Source of the DNA: Pedosphaera sp. | Lineage (GTDB): Bacteria > Verrucomicrobiota > Verrucomicrobiia > Limisphaerales > UBA1100 | Assembly: GCA_009695465.1 (NCBI GenBank) | Contig: SIAW01000013.1 | Span: forward strand, 1 to 40,100 | DNA length: 40,100 bases | Reading direction: 5' to 3' | Shown: in pieces, positions 5,528-32,551 of the stretch | Layout: the number at the start of each line of letters is the position of its first letter | How positions within the stretch are numbered: position 1 is the stretch's first letter | The notes under the pieces: model-generated | What the model saw: the letters and a program-made list of their open reading frames with translations, nothing else | What the model was told of the DNA's origin: nothing | Databases searched by the model: none | Translations under genes and position numbers: made by a program

Positions 5528-6871
5528 TTATTTTGACACCGCGTGGGTTTTGGATTCCTCGTGCGAGGTGCTGCAGCCGCCGCCCTGTTTGGATTGGATG
5601 GCGGCCTTGGCCTCGGCCAGATGACCTTTGCCGACCGAGTAGCCGTTGTGTGCGTGCACTGTCAGACCAGCGGGATCCACTGCGGGCTTGGCGGCGAAGT
5701 TGTAGCTGAAATTTTTCCAGTTGTCGCCGGACTGATAGTTGGTGCCCAACGCGCCGCTGGGGTCGTAGCCGCAATGCACCATGCAGTTTTCGCAGCGCGG
5801 ATCGCGCGCCACACCGTTCACCACGCCGTAGGTTTCCCAGGCCACCTCATCGAGCATCTCGCGGTAAGTCGGATAATGCCCGCGACCTTTGGTATAATCG
5901 GTCATCAGATAGCAGGGCGCTTTCCAACCGGAGATATTGCGTGTGGGGATGGCCCACGCGGTGCAGGTCAACTCGCGCTTGCCCGACAGAAATTCCTGGT
6001 ACACCGGCGTGCCGAAGATGGTGAAGCGCTGGCCCCAATCTTCGATGGAGGCAAACTTGGCGCGGGTCATCGCGCGCGTGAGGAAGAAATCCTGCGGGTC
6101 TTTGCCCAGCCGCTTGACCATGTCCTTCTTGGCCGCATCGTAATCGTACCCGGGCGAGATGGTGTGGCCGTCCACGCCCAACGCGGAGAAGTAGCGGAAC
6201 ATGCCCTCGATCTCCGCCACTTGGGTCTCTCTGTAAACCGTCGTGTTGGTCGCCACTTGATAACCCAGAATCTTGGCCATGCGGATGGCCAGCACGCATT
6301 CCTTGAAGACGCCCTCGCGCTCGACAATCAGGTCGTGCGTGTATTCCAGTCCGTCAATGTGGACGTTCCAGTACATCCATTTGGACGGCCGGATGACTGG
6401 CTGCGGCTTGGCTTTGCTGTGGCGGATGGCGGCCAAGTCCTGCTCGGAAATCAGATCCTCCTCACGCAGTCGCCGCAGCTTGGGCTCCAACGTCGGCGAG
6501 TACACCGCCGCGAGGTAGTCGCGCATTTTGCGGCGCATGAACATGCCGTTGGTGCAGATGTAAACGATGCGGCTTTGCTCCAGCAACGATTCCACCAGCG
6601 ACTCGATGTGCGGATAGATCAGCGGTTCACCGCCGCAGATGCTCACCATCGGCGCCTCGCATTCGGTGGCGGCGCCCACGCAATCTTCCAGGCTCATCAT
6701 GTCTTTGAGGCTGGTGGAATATTCGCGGATGCGCCCGCAGCCCGTGCAGGTGAGGTTGCAGGTGTGCAGCGGCTCCAGTTGCAGCACCATCGCAAATTTG
6801 GGCGTGCGCAGCAGACGATGCTTGATGATGTGACCGGCGATTTTTACCGTGAGGGCGAGTGGGAAACGCAT
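5528..6871 (-). CDS. hpnH: Adenosyl-hopene transferase HpnH (radical SAM)
   Basis: The 447-residue protein is HpnH, the B12-binding-type radical SAM enzyme that adds an adenosyl group to diploptene as the first step of C35 bacteriohopanepolyol synthesis. The 4Fe-4S motif CNLTCTGC lies at Cys38/Cys42/Cys45, directly after LEPLHT, which matches the family layout. Other visible blocks are CGGEPLIYPH (SAM-binding GGE), VHIDG, and a late CENCMVHCGYDPSG block typical of HpnH. The C-terminus has an extra tail ending near GGGCSTSHEES. A small lipoprotein gene begins upstream and ends 13 bases before it, so the two are probably co-transcribed. No squalene-hopene cyclase or other hpn gene is present in the window. 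Confidence 0.9.
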   Translation of the reverse strand: MRFPLALTVKIAGHIIKHRLLRTPKFAMVLQLEPLHTCNLTCTGCGRIREYSTSLKDMMSLEDCVGAATECEAPMVSICGGEPLIYPHIESLVESLLEQSRIVYICTNGMFMRRKMRDYLAAVYSPTLEPKLRRLREEDLISEQDLAAIRHSKAKPQPVIRPSKWMYWNVHIDGLEYTHDLIVEREGVFKECVLAIRMAKILGYQVATNTTVYRETQVAEIEGMFRYFSALGVDGHTISPGYDYDAAKKDMVKRLGKDPQDFFLTRAMTRAKFASIEDWGQRFTIFGTPVYQEFLSGKRELTCTAWAIPTRNISGWKAPCYLMTDYTKGRGHYPTYREMLDEVAWETYGVVNGVARDPRCENCMVHCGYDPSGALGTNYQSGDNWKNFSYNFAAKPAVDPAGLTVHAHNGYSVGKGHLAEAKAAIQSKQGGGCSTSHEESKTHAVSK

Positions 6872-10628: not shown

Positions 10629-10675
10629 ACGGCCTTGCTTTGACTTGGCCGCGGGGCTGGCGTAATTTTCACCAG

Positions 10676-11695
10676 ATGCTTTCAACGCAACGGCGGCGGA
10701 AAATCGCGCAGGCAGGCTGGCAGGGAGTTTGCCAGCCGCTGCAGCCTTTTCTGAAATCTGTCAGTGCCCAGCTTCGCGAGGAGGTGCATGCGTTTGATCC
10801 GGCCATCGGCACGTTTGTCCAATACGCGCTGACGGGCGAGGGCAAGCAACTGCGTCCGGTGCTGGTGGCGTTGGGCGGTGCCGCTGTGGGCAAACTCGGC
10901 AACGACCACGTGAAGGTCGCCGTGATCATCGAGATGGTGCATCTGGCCACGTTGGTGCATGACGATGTCATTGATCACGCCAAGATGCGCCGCGGTCGGC
11001 CCACGGTGACGGCCAATTGGGGCGCGGAGATTTCTGTGCTCGTCGGCGACTGTCTCTTTGCGCAGGCGCTGAAATTGGCGGCGGAATTTCCCACACCGGC
11101 CGTTTGTCGCGCGGTGTCGCAGGCCACGCGCACGGTGTGCACCGGCGAGGTGATGCAGACCCTGCGACGCGGCAATTACAAACTGTCGCGCGAGGAATAC
11201 CTGCGCGTCGTGCGGATGAAAACTGCGGAGCTGTTTGCGCTGGCCTGTGGGTTGGGCGGACAATTGGCTGGGGGCGAGGGGGCGGTGTGCGGGGCGCTTT
11301 CTGAGTACGGCATCCAGCTCGGCACGGCCTATCAGATTTACGACGACTGCCTCGACATCTTCGGAGAGGAGCCGGTGGCGGGCAAATCGCTGGGCACAGA
11401 TTTGGCATTGGGCAAAGCCACGTTGCCGGTACTGGCAGCACTGGAAAAACTGCCGCCGTCGCAGGCGCAGCACCTGCGCGAATTGCTGGAGGGCTGGGAA
11501 CCCGAGCGTGCGGGCGAAGTGCGTGAGCTGTTGTCGCAAGCGCGCGCAATGGAGGAGACACTGCGCGTGGTGCGCTCGCATTTGGTGCAGGCGCGGTCGG
11601 CGTTGGCGGTGTTGCCGCGTGGCAGCGAAACGCAAGGACTGCTGGCGCTGGCGGATTGCTTGGAGGAACAGGTGGCCGATATGGCCGGCAGCTAG
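10676..11695 (+). CDS. Polyprenyl (trans-prenyl) diphosphate synthase
   Basis: I start the 339-residue protein at the ATG at 10676 instead of the tracked TTG at 10640. It is an all-alpha trans-prenyl synthase that condenses isopentenyl diphosphate with allylic diphosphates. The first aspartate-rich motif is LVHDDVIDHAKMRRGRPT (DDVID) and the second is YQIYDDCLDIFG (DDCLD), with KSLGTDLALGKATLP behind it. GKQLRPVLV in the N-terminal part is the usual diphosphate-binding block. Overall it resembles long-chain enzymes (octaprenyl/heptaprenyl type), which make the side chain of menaquinone. That would fit the quinol-oxidising complex encoded downstream, but chain length cannot be read with certainty. 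It begins 47 bases after the EVE gene. Confidence 0.93.
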   Translation: MLSTQRRRKIAQAGWQGVCQPLQPFLKSVSAQLREEVHAFDPAIGTFVQYALTGEGKQLRPVLVALGGAAVGKLGNDHVKVAVIIEMVHLATLVHDDVIDHAKMRRGRPTVTANWGAEISVLVGDCLFAQALKLAAEFPTPAVCRAVSQATRTVCTGEVMQTLRRGNYKLSREEYLRVVRMKTAELFALACGLGGQLAGGEGAVCGALSEYGIQLGTAYQIYDDCLDIFGEEPVAGKSLGTDLALGKATLPVLAALEKLPPSQAQHLRELLEGWEPERAGEVRELLSQARAMEETLRVVRSHLVQARSALAVLPRGSETQGLLALADCLEEQVADMAGS

Positions 11696-13945: not shown

Positions 13946-15688
13946 ATGATGAAACAACTGTTCGACTGGCTGGAACATCGCACGGGCGCGCGCAAGGTCG
14001 TCAACGAGGCGCTGTATGAAAACATCCCCGGCGGTTCGCGCTGGCGATATGTGTGGGGCAGCACGCTCACGTTCACGCTGGCGGTTCAATTTATCACCGG
14101 CATTTTTCTGTGGATGGGCTATGCGCCCAGCGCCACTTCGGCGTGGGAGAGCGTTCACTACATTCAGGAACAGATGACCGGCGGCTGGTTTCTGCGCGGG
14201 CTACATCACTGGACTGCGCAGGTGATGACGGTGCTGCTCGTGCTGCACTTGATGCAGGTGGTGATTGATGGCGCCTACAAAGCGCCGCGCGAGGTCAACT
14301 TTTGGTTCGGTGTATTGCTGCTGCAACTGGTGCTGGCGTTGTCGTTAACCGGCTACCTGCTGCCGTGGGATCAGAAAGGTTACTGGGCCACGAAGGTCGC
14401 CACCGACATTCTGGGCAGCACACCGCTCGTTGGCTCGTATCTCAAAGAACTGGTGTTGGGCGGCGCGGATTACGGCCATCACACGCTCACGCGATTCTTC
14501 GCGCTGCACGCGGGCGTGTTGCCGGCTGCAGTGATCGCGCTGACGGCGGGGCACATTTATCTCTTCCGCCGCCACGGCATCACCGCCAAGACACCGCTGA
14601 AAAAGCGCGACGAATATTTCTGGCCGGAACAGGTGCTCAAAGACGCGGTCGCCTGTCTGGCGGTGCTGGCCACCGTGCTTTTCTTCGTCGTGAAATATCA
14701 CGGCGCGCATCTGGATGCCCCGGCCGATCCCTCCAGCAATTACCCCGCGCGGCCGGACTGGTATTTCCTTTTCCTCTTCCAGTTCCTCAAATATTTCCCC
14801 GGACACTGGGAAGTGCTCGGCGCCGTCGTCATTCCCGGCATTGTGATGACCTTGATTTTCCTCATGCCCATCTTGGGTAAATGGAAGTTGGGCCATCGCT
14901 TCAACATCGGCCTGCTCTGCGCCGTGCTCATCGGTGCGGGCACGCTGACCATCTCCGCGCTGCGTGAAGACAAGGCCAACGTCACCTATCAAGCCAGCGT
15001 GAAACAGGCTGCCAACGATGCGATCGTGGTCAAGGATTTGGCCAAGACACGCGGCGGTATTCCGCCCGACGGCGCGCTGGTCTTGTTGCAAGGGCCGAAG
15101 CTGTTCGCGCAGCACTGCGCCGGTTGCCACGCTTACGGCGGGCACAACGGTCTGCTGGCGGCCTTGTCCGGACCACAGTCAGCACCGGACTTGAAAGGCT
15201 TTGCCACGCGCGAATATCTGACGGCGTTGCTGGATCCGGCCCAGTTCAAGAGCGCCAAGTTTTTTGGAGGCACCAAACATGCCAACGGCAAGATGGCAAA
15301 GTTCCTGGAGGAGAATGCCGATGCCCTTGCTGGCACCAACAAGGTCAATCTGGCCAAGGTGATAAAAGCGGTGTCAGCCGAGGCAGGGATTCAATCACAA
15401 CGCCCGATGGACACGCGGGACGCCACGGAAATCGCCGAGGGCAAAAAACAGTTTGAGGCATTGGGCTGCACCGACTGCCATTCCTTGGGCAAGTGGAATC
15501 CGGAAGACTCGACCGCGCCCGATCTCACGGGGTACGGCTCGCGCGACTGGATGATGGCGCTGCTGCACGACCCCAGCCACGAGCGGTTCTACGGGAAGAA
15601 AAACGATCGCATGCCCGCTTTCGGCAAGGATCAAAAGCTCTCTCGCCAGCAACTGGAGCGCATCGTGGATTGGTTGCGCGGCGAGTAG
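13946..15688 (+). CDS. Cytochrome b fused to a two-haem cytochrome c
   Basis: The 580-residue protein combines a full cytochrome b with a C-terminal cytochrome c region. Haem b ligands are His87/His101 and His188/His203. The second pair has 14 residues between the histidines, as in cytochrome b6. The Qo-site motif is PDWY (270-273) instead of PEWY. Both the b6-like half and the subunit IV-like half are joined in one chain. The position of the haem-ci cysteine of b6f complexes appears to be Val36. After helix at 288-310 and a final helix near 320-338, a periplasmic region has CAGCH (391-395) and CTDCH (508-512), with Met450 and Met557 as possible sixth ligands. With the Rieske gene just upstream it should form a menaquinol:cytochrome c reductase. 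Confidence 0.93.
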   Translation: MMKQLFDWLEHRTGARKVVNEALYENIPGGSRWRYVWGSTLTFTLAVQFITGIFLWMGYAPSATSAWESVHYIQEQMTGGWFLRGLHHWTAQVMTVLLVLHLMQVVIDGAYKAPREVNFWFGVLLLQLVLALSLTGYLLPWDQKGYWATKVATDILGSTPLVGSYLKELVLGGADYGHHTLTRFFALHAGVLPAAVIALTAGHIYLFRRHGITAKTPLKKRDEYFWPEQVLKDAVACLAVLATVLFFVVKYHGAHLDAPADPSSNYPARPDWYFLFLFQFLKYFPGHWEVLGAVVIPGIVMTLIFLMPILGKWKLGHRFNIGLLCAVLIGAGTLTISALREDKANVTYQASVKQAANDAIVVKDLAKTRGGIPPDGALVLLQGPKLFAQHCAGCHAYGGHNGLLAALSGPQSAPDLKGFATREYLTALLDPAQFKSAKFFGGTKHANGKMAKFLEENADALAGTNKVNLAKVIKAVSAEAGIQSQRPMDTRDATEIAEGKKQFEALGCTDCHSLGKWNPEDSTAPDLTGYGSRDWMMALLHDPSHERFYGKKNDRMPAFGKDQKLSRQQLERIVDWLRGE

Positions 15689-15973: not shown

Positions 15974-16005
15974 TTGACTTTGAATTCAGATACCACAATA
16001 TATCG
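15974..16005 (+). promoter_or_regulatory. Possible nrdA promoter overlapping the first NrdR box
   Basis: TTGACT at 15974-15979 is a near-consensus -35 hexamer. TATATC at 15999-16004 is a fair -10 hexamer at 19 bases spacing, which is longer than ideal. The -10 lies inside the first NrdR box, an arrangement that would let NrdR block RNA polymerase. The call depends mainly on this coincidence. Confidence 0.35.
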
Positions 16006-16008
16006 CGC
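15993..16008. promoter_or_regulatory. Putative NrdR box 1
   Basis: CCACAATATATCGCGC matches nine of the ten core bases of the known NrdR box (acaCwAtATaTwGtgt). NrdR is the nucleotide-sensing repressor of ribonucleotide reductase genes, and this site precedes nrdA. The three 3' flanking bases are poor. Confidence 0.6.
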
Positions 16009-16024
16009 AGTAATTAGAACCAAC

Positions 16025-16040
16025 ATACAACAAGTTGTGG
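16025..16040. promoter_or_regulatory. Putative NrdR box 2
   Basis: ATACAACAAGTTGTGG matches about seven of ten core bases of the NrdR box. Its centre is 32 bases from box 1, leaving a 16-base spacer, which is the spacing expected for paired NrdR sites on one face of the helix. The spacing is stronger evidence than the match itself. Confidence 0.5.
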
Positions 16041-16321
16041 AAAACCCATCGAACAACCTTTCAGCACCCTGTGTGACTTATGTGAATAAGTCCGCCGCTG
16101 AGGTCGTTTTTGCCAGTGTTTTCGGGGCGATTTTGTGGGTGTCGCGTGGCGCCTGTATTTCTTTGGCTTGTGGTAGTGTGGTGCGGATTCAGAAATCCTG
16201 CGTGTGTGCGTGGGCGACTGCCTTGCCGGGGCGGTAGAATTGATGAAAGAGTGGCCCGTCTGGCTGGGCGGTTCACTCGTGATGAGACAGTGGTGTGGCG
16301 GCCACTTGCGGAGTGTGGACG

Positions 16322-19237
16322 ATGATTAGCGAGCAATTAAACGGTCAGTTGCGGATGGCCTCGTTGGATCCGCTGCAGGGCAAAGTATTCAGCGTGCGCA
16401 AGCGCGACGGGCGTGTGGTGCCCTTCGATGAGACGCGCATCTGCTTAGCGGTCGAGAGCGCGTTCAAGGCGGACTTGAATGCCGCCATCGAGAACAAACT
16501 GGCCGACGCCATACAGGCGACGGTGCACCGGTTGACGGAGGCAGTGGTGGAGGCGTGTCTGGCCTGTGCTGTGCGCGGCGATGCGCTGGACATCGAGCGC
16601 ATCCAAGACACGGTGGAAGAGCGGTTGATGGGCGGCGGGCATCACACCGTGGCCCGGCGCTACATTGTTTATCGCGAAGAACGCCGCAAGGCCCGCGCCA
16701 TCCGCGGCGAACGCACGGTGGACGGACAGGCGCAAGCGCGCATGCAGGTGACGTTGCCGGACGGCTCTCGCGAAGTGCTCGATCCCCAGTTCATCAAGCG
16801 CCGCATCTTGGGCGCGTGCCGCGGGGTGGAGGAGAAGTGTCAGCCCGCTGATCTCATCGATGAGACGCTGCAGAATTTGTACGACGGTGTGCGCACCGAT
16901 GAGATCGACAAGGCGATGGTCATGTCGGCCAAGTCGCGCATCGAGAAAGAGCCGGCGTACGCCTTCGTGGCGGCGCGGCTGTTGCTCAACAAGATTTACA
17001 CGGAAGTGCTGCCGCGCTTTGATTCGCCGGCGGAACTGCCCAGGATCCACAGCGCGCACTTCGGCGATTACCTGCAGGCGGGCGTGGACGCGGGGCGGCT
17101 CTCGGCGGATTTGCTGCGGTACGATGTGGCCCGGCTGTCAGCGGCGCTGCGGTTGGAGCGCGATCAGCAGTTCGCCTACATGGGCATCCAGACCGTTTAC
17201 GACCGGTACCTTCTCCACATCAAAGGTCGCCGCATCGAGACGCCGCAATATTTCTTCATGCGCGTGGCCATGGGGCTGGCGCTCAACGAAGCGGACAAAG
17301 AGGCGCGCGCCATTGAGTTTTACGACGCGCTCTCGTCTTTCCGTTTCATGTCGTCCACGCCCACGCTGTTCAACTCGGGCACACTGCATCCGCAGCTCAG
17401 CTCGTGCTATCTCAGCACGGTGATGGATGATCTGGACCACATCTTCAAGGTCATTAGCGACGACGCCAAGCTCTCCAAATGGGCCGGCGGTTTGGGCAAC
17501 GACTGGACGAACGTCCGCGCCACCGGCGCGCACATCAAAGGCACCAACGGCGAAAGTCAGGGCGTCATCCCGTTCTTAAAAGTCGCCAACGATACCGCTG
17601 TCGCCGTCAACCAAGGCGGCAAACGCAAAGGCGCGATGTGCGCGTATCTGGAGACGTGGCATCTGGACATCGAAGACTTTCTGGATCTGCGCAAGAACAC
17701 CGGCGACGACCGGCGCCGGACGCCCGACATGAACACGGCCAACTGGATTCCAGACCTGTTCATGAAACGCGTGAAAGCCAACGCGCATTGGACGCTCTTC
17801 AGCCCTAACGACGCGCCGGACCTGCATGATTTGTACGGCGCGGCATTCGAGGCGCGCTACGCGCAGTACGAGCGCATGGCTGATGAAGGCAAGCTGAGCC
17901 TCTTCAAGCGCGTCGAGGCGCAGCAATTGTGGCGCAAGATGCTGATGATGCTCTTCGAGACGGGCCATCCGTGGATCACCTTCAAAGATCCCTCCAACAT
18001 TCGCTCGCCACAGGATCACACCGGCGTTGTCCACAGCTCCAATCTGTGCACGGAGATTTTGTTGAACACCTCTGCCGAGGAAACCGCGGTGTGCAATCTG
18101 GGATCCATCAACCTCGCCGTGCACATCAAAGACGGCGCGCTCGATGAGCCGCTCCTGGCGCAGACGGCGCGCACGGCCATCCGGATGCTCGATAACGTCG
18201 TTGACATCAACTACTACCCCACGCCCGAAGCGGGCACGGCCAACCTGCGCCATCGTCCGGTGGGGATGGGCATCATGGCTTTTCAGGATGCGCTCTATCA
18301 ATTGGGCGTCCCCTACGCCAGCCAAGCTGCGGTGGAATTCGCCGATCGTTCGATGGAGATGGTGAGCTACTACGCCATCCTCGCCTCCACGGAATTGGCG
18401 GCAGAACGCGGCAGCTATCCCAGCTATGCTGGATCCAAATGGGATCGCGGCCTGCTGCCGTTGGACACACTGGACACGTTAGAACGCGAACGCGGCGGGC
18501 ACCTGATCATCGACCGCAGCACACGGATGGACTGGCAGCGCGTGCGTGACGCCGTGCGCACGCACGGCATGCGCAACAGCAACACGATGGCCATCGCGCC
18601 CACGGCCACCATCTCCAACATCGTCGGCGTCAGCCAATCCATCGAGCCCACCTACAAGAACCTGTTCGCCAAGGCCAACCTCAGCGGCGATTTCACCAGC
18701 GTGAACACGTGGCTGGTGGAAGCACTCAAGTCGCGCGGCCTGTGGGACGGTGAAATGGTGGACGACCTGAAATACCACGACGGCTCCGTGCTGGAAATCA
18801 GCCGCGTGCCCGAGGAGTTGAAGGAGATTTACCGCACCGCATTCGAGATCGAGCCGCACTGGCTCATCGCCTGTGCCGCGCGGCGGCAGAAGTGGCTTGA
18901 TATGGGCCAGTCGCTCAATCTCTACTTCGACATCAACCTCGCCGACGCCAGTCGGCCCACTGGGCGCATCCTCAGCGACATGTATTTCTTCGCGTGGGAG
19001 GCGGGCCTCAAGACCACCTACTACCTGCGCACGCTGGCCGCCACGCAGATTGAAAAGTCCACATTGGACATCAACCGATACGGGCTACAGCCCAAGTGGA
19101 TGAAAAACAAATCCGCCTCCGGCGACATCCAAGTGGCGCGCAACGGCGGCAACGGCAACGGCCACGCAGCGCCCGCAGAGGCGGCGGCGCCGAAGGTCTG
19201 CAGCATTCTGGATCCGGGCTGCGAGGCCTGCCAGTGA
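16322..19237 (+). CDS. nrdA: Ribonucleoside-diphosphate reductase, alpha subunit (class I)
   Basis: The protein is 971 residues from the ATG at 16322, which has GGAG eight bases in front; the track start is nine residues longer. NrdA reduces ribonucleoside diphosphates to deoxy forms using a radical delivered by NrdB. The N-terminus has two ATP-cone regulatory domains. The first spans about residues 18-120 ([16 protein letters not shown] to [12 protein letters not shown]). The second spans about 140-235 ([18 protein letters not shown] to [12 protein letters not shown]). Catalytic parts include SSCYLS with the first redox Cys, the [11 protein letters not shown] loop with the thiyl-radical Cys and Glu, NLGSINL, and a C-terminal GCEACQ tail that carries the shuttle cysteines. 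nrdB follows after 39 bases. Confidence 0.96.
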
Positions 19238-19276: not shown

Positions 19277-20338
19277 ATGTCTTGTTGCAATATCTCGGAC
19301 ACGCCCGCAGAGGCGCGCGATCTCAGTAAGCGGATCCATGTGGAGGACAAGCGCCTCATCAACTGCAGCGCGGTGGATGTCAATCAGCTCATGCCCATCA
19401 AATATCAATGGGCGTGGGAGCATTATCTCAACGGCTGCAAAAACCATTGGATGCCCAACGAGGTGTCCATGCAGAAGGACATCGAGCTTTGGAAATCCAA
19501 CAAGCTCACCGCCGACGAGCGTCAGGTCATCATGCGCAACCTCGGGTTCTTTTCCACGGCGGAAAGCCTCGTGGGCAACAACATCGTGCTGGCGATTTTC
19601 AAGCACGTGACCAATCCGGAGTGCCGCCAGTATTTGCTGCGCCAGTCCTTCGAGGAGGCCATCCACACGCACACCTTCCACTACATCTGCGAGTCGCTGG
19701 GGCTGGATGAGCGCGAGGTGTTCAACATGTATCACGAGGTGAACTCCATCCGCGACAAGGACCTCTTCGAGATGAACTTGACGTCGGACATCATGCGCTC
19801 GGACTTCAACACGGAGACCGTCGAGGGCATCCAGAAATTCCTGAAGAACCTCGTGGGCTTCTACGTGATCATGGAGGGCATCTTCTTCTACTCGGGCTTT
19901 GTGATGATGCTCTCCTTCCAGCGGCAGAACCGCATGACGGGCATCGCCGAGCAGTTCCAGTACATCATGCGTGATGAGACCATCCACATGAACTTCGGCG
20001 CGGATCTCATCAACGGCATCAAGAAAGAGAATCCCGAGGCGTGGACGCCCGCCTTCCAATCCGAGTTGCAGCAGATGATCGAGCACGCTGTCGAGCTGGA
20101 GATCGCCTACGCGCAGGATTGTTTGCCGCGCGGCATCCTCGGGCTCAACGCCGGGTTGTTCCGCGAGTACGTCCAGCACATCGCCGACCGTCGGCTGGAG
20201 CGCATCGGGATGAAGGCGCGGTATGGCTCGCGCAATCCTTTCCCGTGGATGAGCGAGACGATGGATTTGAGCAAGGAGAAGAATTTCTTTGAGTCCCGCG
20301 TGACGGAATATCAGGTGGGTTCCACTTTGAGCTGGTAG
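19277..20338 (+). CDS. nrdB: Ribonucleoside-diphosphate reductase, beta subunit, class Ic type
   Basis: The 353-residue ferritin-like protein houses the metal cofactor that starts catalysis in NrdA. Metal ligands can be read as Glu96 ([10 protein letters not shown]), Glu127 and His130 (FEEAIH), Glu200 (VIMEG), and Glu234/His237 (RDETIH). The residue four after His130, where class Ia enzymes have the radical Tyr, is Phe134 (HTHTFHY), and the first ligand is Glu rather than Asp. Both features are the signature of class Ic enzymes such as that of Chlamydia, which use a Mn(IV)/Fe(III) cofactor in place of a tyrosyl radical. Tyr136 sits two residues later, as in the chlamydial protein. A clear AAGGAG precedes the ATG. 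The C-terminus ends VGSTLSW. Confidence 0.95.
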
Positions 20339-20439: not shown

Positions 20440-21009
20440 ATGGGCATTCATTCTGACCAATGGATTCAGCGCATGGCGCTGGAGCACGGCATGATCGAGC
20501 CGTTCGCCGAGGGGCAGGTACGCCACACGCCCGATGGCCAGCGCGTCATCAGCTACGGCGTTTCCAGCTACGGCTACGACCTGCGCGTGTCCGATGAGTT
20601 CAAGGTTTTCACCAACGTGTACAGCTCGGTGGTGGACCCAAAACATTTCGACGAGCGCTCGTTCGTGGACATGAAGACCGATGTCTGCGTCATCCCGCCT
20701 AACTCCTTCGCGCTCTCGCGCAGCGTGGAATATTTCCGCATCCCGCGGCACGTGCTGACAGTGTGCTTGGGCAAAAGCACGTACGCGCGCTGCGGCATCA
20801 TCGTCAACGTCACGCCGTTCGAGCCGGAATGGGAAGGCCACGTGACTCTGGAAATCTCCAACACCACGCCGCTGCCCGCCAAGATTTACGCGAACGAAGG
20901 ACTGGCGCAGGTGCTCTTCTTCGAGGCGCACGAAGTCTGCCAGACCAGCTACGCCGATCGCAGCGGCAAGTACATGAAACAGCGCGGCATCACCGTGCCG
21001 CGCATGTGA
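20440..21009 (+). CDS. dcd: dCTP deaminase
   Basis: The 189-residue protein converts dCTP to dUTP, the precursor of dTMP. It belongs to the Dcd/dUTPase trimer fold. Diagnostic blocks are [18 protein letters not shown], the catalytic region [44 protein letters not shown] with the catalytic Glu, and a [22 protein letters not shown] end. Length is normal for the mono-functional deaminase. A bifunctional deaminase/dUTPase cannot be excluded. It sits 101 bases behind nrdB, separated by a strong hairpin, so it belongs to the same pathway but perhaps to a separate transcript. Downstream the esterase gene starts after only seven bases. Confidence 0.95.
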
Positions 21010-28271: not shown

Positions 28272-28910
28272 ATGATGGGAGTCATCCAATCCAGTCCGCT
28301 CGCCGCGATCGGCCTCGGCGACTTGATCTGGATCATTATCGTCGGCGGCGCGGTGTTGATCGACGTCTTCGGAAAGAAAAAAAAGGATGCCGCAGTGGAC
28401 GAGGATTTGGAGGGTAATCCGAACCTCCCGCCGCCTCCTCCGCCACCCGAATTGGTGGCCTTGCTGCGCCAGCACATGCAGGGTGTCCAAGATCCGGCGC
28501 CAACGCCATTACTGCGCAGCATGTCGCCCGTGTCCGTTCACGTGCCGCAGTTGCAGCCCGTGGCGCGGCAGTGGGCGCCGTCGCTAACCACTTCGCCAGT
28601 GACCCCACCCGTGCCGCGCGCGGTCAAGGAGGCGAAGATCAGGGAAGCGAAGGCTCGCGAGGCGAGGAAAGGCCGGCCGGTGCGCGTCACCGCTGCAGCC
28701 AGGGCCGTGGTTTCAACCGCAGCCAAGGCTGGGCACGTGCACAACACCGCTGCGGCAGCGGCTCAATCCCGATCGCACGCAGCAACTGTTGCGGTCGAGA
28801 AGTCAGGGAACGCGGAGAAGATTGCAGAGATGCTGCATACCCCCGAGGGGCTGCGACACGCGTTTCTGGCGACGGTGGTTCTGGGTGCGCCCAAGGCGCT
28901 GGCCGATTAG
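28272..28910 (+). CDS. FloA-linked membrane-anchored small protein with conserved C-terminal motif
   Basis: The 212-residue protein starts at one of two adjacent Met codons, 15 bases after floA. A single hydrophobic segment (LGDLIWIIIVGGAVLIDVF) is followed by a KKKK stop-transfer run and then a Pro-rich region with eight prolines in a row. An Ala/Lys/Arg-rich middle with helical propensity follows. It ends with EGLRHAFLATVVLGAPKALAD. The C-terminal pattern (LR-A-LxxxxLGxPKAL) is one I recall from Planctomycetes and Verrucomicrobiota proteins, but I do not know a function. Its operon position suggests a partner of FloA. Its last three bases overlap the stop of the convergent PSD1 gene. Confidence 0.7.
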   Translation: MMGVIQSSPLAAIGLGDLIWIIIVGGAVLIDVFGKKKKDAAVDEDLEGNPNLPPPPPPPELVALLRQHMQGVQDPAPTPLLRSMSPVSVHVPQLQPVARQWAPSLTTSPVTPPVPRAVKEAKIREAKAREARKGRPVRVTAAARAVVSTAAKAGHVHNTAAAAAQSRSHAATVAVEKSGNAEKIAEMLHTPEGLRHAFLATVVLGAPKALAD

Positions 28911-31900
28911 TCCACGAAGGCCATCTCGTTGGAGAGCAGCAGCACCTGCACGTATTTTTCCCAGGTGCTCAACGGCTTGGGTTTGTACGTTGCGCCCTGA
29001 TACTCGTCGGCCGCCGTCCATTCGTTGACTTGCAGGGATTGGCCCGACTGCTCTTTGGTCAGCGCGTCCACCACCTTGACCGTGGGATTCCAGTTGAAGT
29101 AATCCTGATGCGGCTGCTCGCGGGAGTGGACGATGAAATCAATCGTGTCGCCGCGTCGCACTGTGATGTTGGTGATGTTGTGCCCCTTGGAATCCTTCTT
29201 GGAGTTGGAGGTCCACAACTCTTTGCCGGAACGATCCGACCCCTTCAAAGTCTGTCCGTGGACGATCATGCCGGTGACCCCATCCCACGCCACGTCCAGC
29301 CCTTTCTTATAGTCGGCGCCGGACTTGTCGTAGAGATCTTTGGCTTTGTCCTCCAAGAAATGCTGCAACGTGCCGGTGATGTTCACGGTGGTGTCGCGCG
29401 GGGCGATCCAGCGGCGGATCACCGCGACCTCTTTTACCTGGCCCGAATGCCCGCCTTTGGCCGTCAGGTGCATGTTGCCAAATTGCTTGTCCGGCCGGCT
29501 CGCGCTGCCTTGCCACGCCGTGCCGTCGGTGTACGGGAAATGGAAGAATCGCACGGTGGCCACCTTGGCTTTTTCATCGCGCGCCCATTGTCCGTAGCCG
29601 GTGTACCACGTGGTGGTGGGGGTCATCGCGGTGGGTTGACCGCCGGTTTCCTCGGCCAAGAAACGCTGGCCGAGCTTCAATTCCATCGGCTCGGGCAGGC
29701 GCTGGTAAATCATACTGTACAAGATGGCGATGCGCTGGGCGTCATCGTTCACGCGGGCGAACTCGGGGCGATTGACCAGTCGCTTGGCCAGATCGGCGAT
29801 CATCTGGTTGTTCATCATGAACAACGCCTGCTGCGCCACGGTGGTGATGGAGCGCTGGCCAGTGGTGGCGTCGGGATTGGCGAAGTCGAACGTCTTGAAA
29901 ATGTCGTCCAGATTGCGGCGGTCAATGTAGCCGTAAAGCGTGCGGCGATAATTGAGCGTGTCGCCGGTGAGCTTGACGGGCCGGCCGCCCATCATCAAAT
30001 CCAGCTTGCCGCTGACGTGAATCAAGCCGTCACGGAAGGATTCGAAGTTGAGGCGGCGGCGGTTCACCTTGGTCAGGAAAATATTGTCCGGATCCTTGCG
30101 GCTATAACGCGGGTTGTCGTCGCTGCCTTGCTGGTAGGTGTTGGACATGAGGACGAGCTTGTGCATCTTCTTCATCGTCCATGCCGGCCCACCTTCATCG
30201 CTCATGAGATACGTGGAGAGATAATCCAGCAGCTCAGGATGACTGGGAGGTTCCGCGCGCAGCCCAAACTCGTTGGCCGTACCCACGATGCCCCGGCCGA
30301 AATGGTGCAGCCAAATGCGATTGATCAACACGCGTGCCGTGAGCGGATTATCTTTGCTGGCGATGGCCTTGGCCATTTCGAGACGCCCGCTGGTGTCCGC
30401 AGGGAATGCAGTGCGGTTGCCTTCGGATAGAATCTCCAAGAATTGCCGCGGGGCTTCGTCGCCCAATTGGCCGCGGTTGCCTTTGATCATGATGCGTTGG
30501 TTGGAAGGATTGGGTTTGTCCACCAACACCATCGCGCGCGGCGGCGAGCCATTGTGGGTTTTTTTCAGGTCCGCGATCTTGTCAATGAACTTGCTCTGCT
30601 CATCGCGCTCGACCTTGTTGTCCATGCGCTTGATGCGGTCGAAAGGATAATCGCAGGGCGAATTGTTGCCGTAGAACACGCGGCGCAACTGCTCCCATTG
30701 ATCCGCCAACCCTTTCTCGGCAAACTTGACGCCGAAATTCTTCTCGGCATCCGGCAGCGACTGGGGCGGCTTGAGGGCGGGATCCTTGGTGGCCACCTGT
30801 TTCTGATAATAAGCGGTCAGCGCTTGTGAGCGCCAGATCAGGTCGGCGGTGTCAAAGAGTTGCTGATAGCGCATGGCGGCCTCGTACAAGCTGTTCGGCG
30901 CGGGCTGGGTGAGGTGCTTGAGGACGATAGGATTGATATTCTTGTTCTTGTCCTTCTGCTTCGCGTCGTCGGCCGCCAGCTTCAAGGCTGCGCGCGGTGA
31001 TTCAGCGGCAAAAGTATTCGTGGACAGCGCCGCGTAGGCCACCCACGGGGCGAAGACCGGGTCATCACTGCGCTGGCGGCTCAGGAAGTTCTGCCAGTTG
31101 TCGCCGATGTCCACCTTCATCTTGAAGTCTTTGGTCTTCTTTTCGAACTCAGCACGGTTCTCGCGGACATTCTGTTTCTGATCCCGGAAGAACTCCCCCC
31201 AGATCATGTAGCGCAGCGCGTTGGTGCGGGCGTTCTGCTCAAATTCATAGCGGGTCTGCAGCTTGAACTGTTCGTGGTCGCGCTCCAGCTCCAAGACCTT
31301 GTTCCGGAAATCCTGATACTCGGGCGTGGCTGCGAAGGTTCCTCCTTGCGCGGTGTCAGCCAGCAGAACGGGTTTCTTTTCCTCCGCCGGTTCCTCGGAA
31401 CTGTTCAACACCCCGAACATCGAATAGTAGTCAGCGGTGGGCACCGGATCAAATTTGTGGTTGTGGCAGCGCGAGCAGTACACCGAGAGGCCCAGCGTGC
31501 CGCGGGTGATGGTGTCAATCTGGTCGTCCACCATCTCTTCATTGTTGCGGTCGCGGCGGCCCAACGTGAGCAGTCCCATCGCCGCCTGGCTGTATTTGTC
31601 GGTGCTCTCGCCTTTGGCCAGCAGACGGTCGGCCGCGAGTTGTTCGATGAGGAAACGGTCGTACGGTTTGTCCTGGTTCATCGCGCCGATGACCCAGTCG
31701 CGGTACGTCCACGCGTAGATAAATTCGCCGCCGCGATTGCGTCGGTCACGGCCATCGGTGTCCGCGTAACGCGCCACGTCCAGCCAGTTGCGGCCCCAAT
31801 GCTCGCCGTAATGGGGCGAGGCCAGCAATTGATCCACCACCTTTTCCCAAGCGTTGGGCGAGGTGTCCTGCATGAACGCCATCGCCTCCGCGTAGGTGGG

Positions 31901-32551
31901 CGGCATGCCGATGAGGTCGAAGTACACGCGCCGGATCAACGTCCACTTGTCAGCGGCCGGCGAGGGCATCATTCCCCGCGCCTCTTGCTTGGCCAGCACG
32001 AAGCCGTCGATGGGATTTTCTTTGGCCCAATTGGAGAGCTTGCCGCCGAAGATTGTCGCGGGGTTGATCAGCGCGGGTTTTTTGACGGGCTGAAACGACC
32101 AGTGCTGGCGCGCCTTGTCCATGTCCTTCTGCGATCGGAGCACCGCAGCGTTGTTGCCTCCGCGTGGGTCGGGTGCGCCCTGCCGAATCCATGTTTCCAA
32201 ATCGCTGATCTGATCGGCCGTGAGTTGTGCGCCGCTGGGCGGCATGGGATCCACCGCGCTTTTGACGCGCTGCATGAGCAAGCTGCCGCCCGGATCGCCC
32301 GGCTTGAGCGCCGCGCCGGAGTCGCCACCCTTGATCACGCCTGCTTTGGAATCCAGATATAGCCCAGCCTTGGCCTTCGCATCGCTGCTATGACACTCAT
32401 AACAGTTGTTGACGAAGATGGGGCGGATCTTGGACTCGAAGAACTCCAGTTGCTCGGGGCTGATCTTGTCCTGCTGCGCCTGCACCGGCAGTGCAGCCAA
32501 CAAGAGCGGGGCGAACAGTCTGCTGACGGAAATCCAACGCGCGTTTTTCAT
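28907..32551 (-). CDS. PSCyt1/PSCyt2 (DUF1549)/PSD1 (DUF1553) exported cytochrome protein
   Basis: The 1214-residue protein has a cleavable signal (LFAPLLLAALPVQAQ), then a planctomycetal cytochrome c domain (PSCyt1) with haem motif CYECH at 50-54, a SSDAKAKAGLYLDSKAG block, and GDPGGSLLMQRV. This is followed by PSCyt2/DUF1549 (HWSFQPVKKPA, DGFVLAKQEARGM, VYFDLIGMPPT, HWGRNWLDVARYADTDG) and PSD1/DUF1553 (AKAIASKDNPLTARVLINRIW, FGRGIVGTANEFG, LNFESFRDGLIHVSGKLD). A GGAG precedes the ATG. These large periplasmic proteins are abundant in Planctomycetes and Verrucomicrobiota; electron transfer linked to carbohydrate breakdown has been proposed, but the substrate is unknown. A DUF1501 gene lies 41 bases upstream and is its usual partner. 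Confidence 0.95.
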   Translation of the reverse strand: MKNARWISVSRLFAPLLLAALPVQAQQDKISPEQLEFFESKIRPIFVNNCYECHSSDAKAKAGLYLDSKAGVIKGGDSGAALKPGDPGGSLLMQRVKSAVDPMPPSGAQLTADQISDLETWIRQGAPDPRGGNNAAVLRSQKDMDKARQHWSFQPVKKPALINPATIFGGKLSNWAKENPIDGFVLAKQEARGMMPSPAADKWTLIRRVYFDLIGMPPTYAEAMAFMQDTSPNAWEKVVDQLLASPHYGEHWGRNWLDVARYADTDGRDRRNRGGEFIYAWTYRDWVIGAMNQDKPYDRFLIEQLAADRLLAKGESTDKYSQAAMGLLTLGRRDRNNEEMVDDQIDTITRGTLGLSVYCSRCHNHKFDPVPTADYYSMFGVLNSSEEPAEEKKPVLLADTAQGGTFAATPEYQDFRNKVLELERDHEQFKLQTRYEFEQNARTNALRYMIWGEFFRDQKQNVRENRAEFEKKTKDFKMKVDIGDNWQNFLSRQRSDDPVFAPWVAYAALSTNTFAAESPRAALKLAADDAKQKDKNKNINPIVLKHLTQPAPNSLYEAAMRYQQLFDTADLIWRSQALTAYYQKQVATKDPALKPPQSLPDAEKNFGVKFAEKGLADQWEQLRRVFYGNNSPCDYPFDRIKRMDNKVERDEQSKFIDKIADLKKTHNGSPPRAMVLVDKPNPSNQRIMIKGNRGQLGDEAPRQFLEILSEGNRTAFPADTSGRLEMAKAIASKDNPLTARVLINRIWLHHFGRGIVGTANEFGLRAEPPSHPELLDYLSTYLMSDEGGPAWTMKKMHKLVLMSNTYQQGSDDNPRYSRKDPDNIFLTKVNRRRLNFESFRDGLIHVSGKLDLMMGGRPVKLTGDTLNYRRTLYGYIDRRNLDDIFKTFDFANPDATTGQRSITTVAQQALFMMNNQMIADLAKRLVNRPEFARVNDDAQRIAILYSMIYQRLPEPMELKLGQRFLAEETGGQPTAMTPTTTWYTGYGQWARDEKAKVATVRFFHFPYTDGTAWQGSASRPDKQFGNMHLTAKGGHSGQVKEVAVIRRWIAPRDTTVNITGTLQHFLEDKAKDLYDKSGADYKKGLDVAWDGVTGMIVHGQTLKGSDRSGKELWTSNSKKDSKGHNITNITVRRGDTIDFIVHSREQPHQDYFNWNPTVKVVDALTKEQSGQSLQVNEWTAADEYQGATYKPKPLSTWEKYVQVLLLSNEMAFVD

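Follow-up and report, generated by a model that had tools for sequence, protein, structure and literature searches.

Does a ribonucleotide reductase whose beta subunit has a phenylalanine in the place of the radical tyrosine belong to class Ic, and which metals would it then use? The nrdB gene in the analysed stretch of DNA (the window, 40,100 nucleotides) raises this question, and a preliminary description, made by eye, had answered it with a class Ic enzyme. We searched the gene product, its neighbours and the rest of the assembly, and we regard it as highly probable that nrdB supplies the beta subunit for an aerobic ribonucleotide reductase of class Ic, which works with the adjacent NrdA through a mechanism like that of Chlamydia trachomatis.

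The nrdB gene and its key residues

The open reading frame starts with ATG at 19277, with AAGGAG just 5' of the start codon. It is a real gene and encodes a complete beta subunit of a class I ribonucleotide reductase. The gene and the codons of its key residues (all assigned by alignment) are as follows.

19277..20338, + strand: nrdB, predicted class Ic beta subunit (353 aa; Pfam PF00268, NCBIfam, alignments, fold match)
19448..19450, + strand: Trp58 codon (C. trachomatis Trp51)
19562..19564, + strand: Glu96 codon, first metal ligand (E. coli Asp84, C. trachomatis Glu89)
19655..19666, + strand: Glu127 to His130 codons, EXXH metal ligands
19676..19678, + strand: Phe134 codon, position of the radical Tyr (E. 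coli Tyr122, C. trachomatis Phe127)
19682..19684, + strand: Tyr136 codon (C. trachomatis Tyr129)
19874..19876, + strand: Glu200 codon, metal ligand
19961..19963, + strand: Tyr229 codon (C. trachomatis Tyr222, electron relay; role from PMC4118035)
19976..19987, + strand: Glu234 to His237 codons, metal ligands
20309..20311, + strand: Tyr345 codon, predicted C-terminal radical-transfer Tyr (E. coli Tyr356)

In the MAFFT alignment with NrdB of E. coli MG1655, D84 corresponds to E96 and Y122 to F134, just as the preliminary description had read them, with the residue numbers right. The remaining ligands are matched as well (E115 to E127, H118 to H130, E204 to E200, E238 to E234 and H241 to H237), and so are four residues outside the ligand set (W48 to W58, F208 to F204, D237 to D233 and Y356 to Y345). 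The ligand set of the query consists of four Glu and two His (Glu96, Glu127, His130, Glu200, Glu234 and His237).

C. trachomatis NrdB (1SYY) aligns with the query without gaps over 337 residues at an offset of 7, and E96, F134, Y136, W58, Y229 and Y345 of the query are E89, F127, Y129, W51, Y222 and Y338 in its numbering. Glu120, His123, Glu193, Phe197, Glu227 and His230 of C. trachomatis are also matched, and all compared residues agree. Against both reference proteins, the radical position of the query is without Tyr and its first ligand is not Asp. Tyr136, which had been equated with the extra tyrosine of the chlamydial protein, indeed aligns with Tyr129; it is not restricted to the Phe type, being present in most Leu-type and some Asp/Tyr-type NrdBs. 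The list of key residues of C. trachomatis NrdB draws in part on PMC4118035. Among the related loci covering the site, 96 of 97 have both Phe134 and Glu96 and the sole exception is the E. coli control, so the signature is not due to chance.

The closest solved relatives by sequence are the C. trachomatis Mn/Fe NrdB entries (1SYY, 4D8F and 4M1I; about 71% identity), which share with the query every ligand, the radical-site Phe and the equivalents of Tyr129, Trp51, Tyr222 and Tyr338. The query differs from them in being a Verrucomicrobiota protein and in its N-terminus, the first 16 residues of which lie outside the alignment. Next among the solved families, in sequence as in fold, comes the R2 protein of PDB 6Y2N (486 bits, about 61% identity). 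The predicted structure of the query has a moderate mean pLDDT of 73.9 with both ends poor, and was used for the fold match only; its best matches are 1SYY, 4M1I and 4D8F, followed by 6Y2N, with all other subclasses far behind.

The gene pair, its predicted cofactor and the metal supply

The gene pair, its neighbour downstream and the candidate regulatory sites upstream are located as follows.

15993..16008, + strand: NrdR-box-like site 1, CCACAATATATCGCGC (scored scan; conserved 5' of nrdA in relatives)
16025..16040, + strand: NrdR-box-like site 2, ATACAACAAGTTGTGG (32 bp from site 1)
16295..19237, + strand: nrdA, catalytic alpha subunit (domain models, catalytic residues; 39 bases 5' of nrdB)
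20440..21009, + strand: dCTP deaminase, the next gene downstream of nrdB

NrdA contains two ATP cones, the active-site residues Cys371, Cys585 and Cys600, Asn583, Glu587, the pair Tyr909/Tyr910 and a CxxC tail. Homology with relatives sets in at the ATG at 16322, which is therefore likely to be the true start of the gene. The protein matches the 1046-residue model PRK12365 from position 116 onward only, so the first of the ATP cones in the model seems to be missing from it. A scan with the strict NrdR-box consensus gave no match, and the box-like pair was found by a looser scored scan together with a spacing test. An equally good pair appeared in none of 2000 Markov shuffles, and site 1 with a second site at the 32-bp spacing recurs 5' of nrdA in five relatives (L005, L009, L010, L011 and L015). 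Since the genome also has an nrdR gene, NrdR probably controls the transcription of the reductase genes.

Several other genes of the window were recorded as well. One open reading frame (13946-15688, + strand) combines a cytochrome b N-terminal domain with a cytochrome c domain at the C-terminus, and a large planctomycete-type cytochrome protein with PSCyt1/PSCyt2/PSD1 is located at 28907-32551 (- strand). An HpnH-like adenosyl-hopene transferase at 5528-6871 (- strand), above cut-off, suggests hopanoid synthesis, and a polyprenyl synthase is found at 10640-11695.

The window forms a single contig in an assembly of 2.57 Mb with 90.6% completeness. The search of this assembly for a second reductase (class I/II barrel, NrdD or other NrdB) found none, with no class II enzyme and no NrdD; nrdA and nrdB of the window encode the one class I/II catalytic subunit and the one NrdB that were found, although another reductase could be missing at 90.6% completeness. 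What is established directly is which residues are present, the pairing of nrdA with nrdB, the family assignment and that the assembly has no further reductase genes.

By homology with C. trachomatis NrdB, we think it very likely that the query holds a Mn(IV)/Fe(III) cofactor and depends on manganese, while metal choice is not readable from sequence with certainty (PMC4118035). The metals, their oxidation states and the electron path are what we infer from the C. trachomatis mechanism (PMC4118035, PMC8463856). Mn(II) would occupy site 1 (Glu96, Glu127, His130) and Fe(II) site 2 (Glu200, Glu234, His237), and O2 or H2O2 would oxidise them to Mn(IV)/Fe(IV). One electron passing through Tyr229/Trp58 would then give Mn(IV)/Fe(III), the centre that would replace the tyrosyl radical. 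From there the oxidising equivalent may travel by way of Trp58 and Tyr345 into NrdA, to Tyr910/Tyr909 and Cys585.

As for metal supply, an Nramp manganese importer was searched for in the assembly and not found. There is a metal ABC importer (G000:C36:7470-8285, L107), comprising a TroA/MntC/AztC-like binding protein and an adjacent ATPase. The binding protein is about as similar to TroA as to AztC (zinc) and MntC (manganese), and the best model for the ATPase is of Mn/Fe type. The importer appears to be of Mn/Zn type, with a specificity unsettled between Mn and Zn, and it is a possible manganese supply for NrdB.

These features leave some room for a protein that is class Ic by descent and whose one-electron oxidant in the cell is a different metal pair, Fe/Fe or Mn/Mn, depending on supply. 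The ligand set is common to di-iron and Mn/Fe proteins, C. trachomatis R2c can be loaded with the wrong metals in vitro (PMC4118035, PMC8463856), and the assembly offers no Nramp and only an importer of unsettled specificity. However, Mn/Fe is the only highly active form of C. trachomatis R2c (PMC4118035), with which the query shares about 71% identity and all ligands, and we therefore consider another metal pair improbable. Nor do we expect, with scarcely less assurance, that the sole reductase found in a presumably free-living, non-chlamydial bacterium assembles or tolerates a pair other than Mn/Fe. If it did, a class Ic sequence would not in practice imply a Mn/Fe enzyme.

Subclass and relatives of the query

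The alignment, the tree, NCBIfam and the searches against PDB and by fold all support a class Ic beta subunit of the Chlamydia type. The preliminary description had taken Phe and Glu together as the mark of class Ic. The two residues alone are not a unique mark, because the R2-like ligand-binding oxidases (R2lox), which use Mn/Fe, also begin with Glu and are without the radical Tyr (PMC4118035).

We compared the query with R2lox, which is not a reductase subunit. The first-ligand Glu and the absent radical Tyr are all that would speak for such an oxidase. R2lox has Ala where the query has Phe204 (the Phe197 equivalent) and is without the C-terminal Tyr, whereas the query keeps Tyr229 and Tyr345 and adjoins an intact nrdA. 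NCBIfam PRK07209 scores 621 bits on the query, while the R2lox models reach 31-63 bits, far under their cut-offs of 194-346. R2lox is ruled out on these grounds, and we give it practically no credence. Class Id (the L. blandensis type) was also rejected, its structures 5OLK and 6SF4 scoring just 55-56 bits against 579 for 1SYY. A misaligned class Ia/Ib enzyme with Tyr136, two residues past Phe134, as the radical residue is next to impossible: the motif alignment is unambiguous and free of gaps with E. coli Tyr122 on Phe134, E. coli has His at the position of Tyr136, the C. trachomatis protein shares that Tyr, and Glu96 and Phe134, together with the tree, exclude the Asp first ligand and radical Tyr of class Ia/Ib.

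In three trees, the query falls with Verrucomicrobiota Phe/Glu sequences, and the set to which they belong includes members from Chlamydiota, Planctomycetota, Hydrogenedentota and Rubrobacter. The Phe group has a support of 88 (SH-aLRT) in one tree, and in another its base is unresolved, while the placement of the query among close Phe sequences is clear. Constraining the query to the Asp/Tyr group made the tree 11.9 log units worse (p-AU 0.035). The query thus groups with the C. trachomatis-type Phe/Glu proteins and not inside class Ia/Ib. The trees do not resolve how the Phe, Leu and Tyr groups branch at depth; in one of them the Leu group joins the Asp/Tyr rows across very long branches, a joining that we do not trust.

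Among named records, the nearest are MAGs from Verrucomicrobiota with 81-87% identity; they include two labelled by their depositors as Akkermansia muciniphila and one as Pedosphaera, labels that may be inaccurate. Every relative read at 71% identity or more has the same Phe/Glu signature, so the query is an ordinary addition to the known class Ic type, which is common in Verrucomicrobiota. In the family sample, a close homologue was present in all good genomes (10 of 10). About 150 R2 sequences without the Tyr had already been counted by 2014 (PMC4118035).

Two class-Ic-like NrdBs on contigs of the viral catalogue IMG/VR were also read. One (L186:3001-4014) has Glu/Phe and 75% identity. The other (L187:859-1902) is 58% identical to the query overall, but has Asp as first ligand (FSTADSLV) and Tyr at the radical position (EEAIHTHSYQY), which is the class Ia type. 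It follows from the latter that the two signature sites change together even between fairly close relatives, and this paired change supports the logic of reading Phe and Glu as a joint signature. It also follows that the subclass cannot be assigned from identity alone, in agreement with the clustering reported in PMC8463856, where Ic-like and Ia-like sequences share one similarity cluster.

Leu-type NrdBs and the range of class Ic in Verrucomicrobiota

In a survey of 388 Verrucomicrobiota genomes, the NrdB matches fall in identity bands. A match of at least 68% identity, which corresponds to the Phe group, was found in 16 of the 388 (two with fragments only). Most Verrucomicrobiota NrdB matches (about 90; L114-L124, L136) lie in the band of 37-44%, and every full-length member of this band that was read has Glu with Leu. 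The matches at about 20-31% identity are mostly Asp with Tyr. The Leu-type NrdBs have the same ligands as the query and are likewise without the radical Tyr, but they differ in the Leu for Phe and in an acidic DDDL/DDDEL tail. No solved structure nearer to them than C. trachomatis NrdB was found. Leu, Ile and Val at the radical position in R2c have been documented before (Hogbom 2010, as cited in PMC3824934).

In at least 13 genomes of the genera g64 and g211, and in a diverged form in g210, a second NrdB-like gene, here called beta', is located directly 5' of a Leu-type nrdB, and all six operons read out have the order beta'-beta-nrdA. Such loci include G398:C8:97454-99646 (L150, L182) as well as L151-L164 and L180-L185. 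In g64 and g211, beta' has lost four of the six metal ligands (the first Glu to Gln, both His to Arg and the fourth Glu to Val, Ile or Thr) and is without the C-terminal radical Tyr, with the acidic DDDL-like tail kept. Its dN/dS between close copies is 0.04-0.14, which indicates purifying selection. It looks like a metal-dead partner subunit, possibly a bacterial analogue of yeast Rnr4; our limited literature search found no description of a metal-dead beta' in a bacterium. Besides, the second tandem NrdBs of two other loci (L131, orf at 802, G135:C11:44515-45459; L138, G227:C42:61967-62920) keep all ligands and the Leu, with Asn for Tyr229 and His for Tyr136.

Class Ic has been linked to pathogens and extremophiles (PMC4118035), and a class Ic enzyme has been reconstructed in the last common chlamydial ancestor (PMC9816063). 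That a sister lineage of Chlamydiae has a class Ic enzyme as its sole reductase agrees better with spread or inheritance inside the superphylum than with an adaptation to host immunity, while it proves neither. In conclusion, the query extends the documented distribution of the Chlamydia-type reductase within Verrucomicrobiota, and in this genome DNA precursors seem to be made through this enzyme alone.
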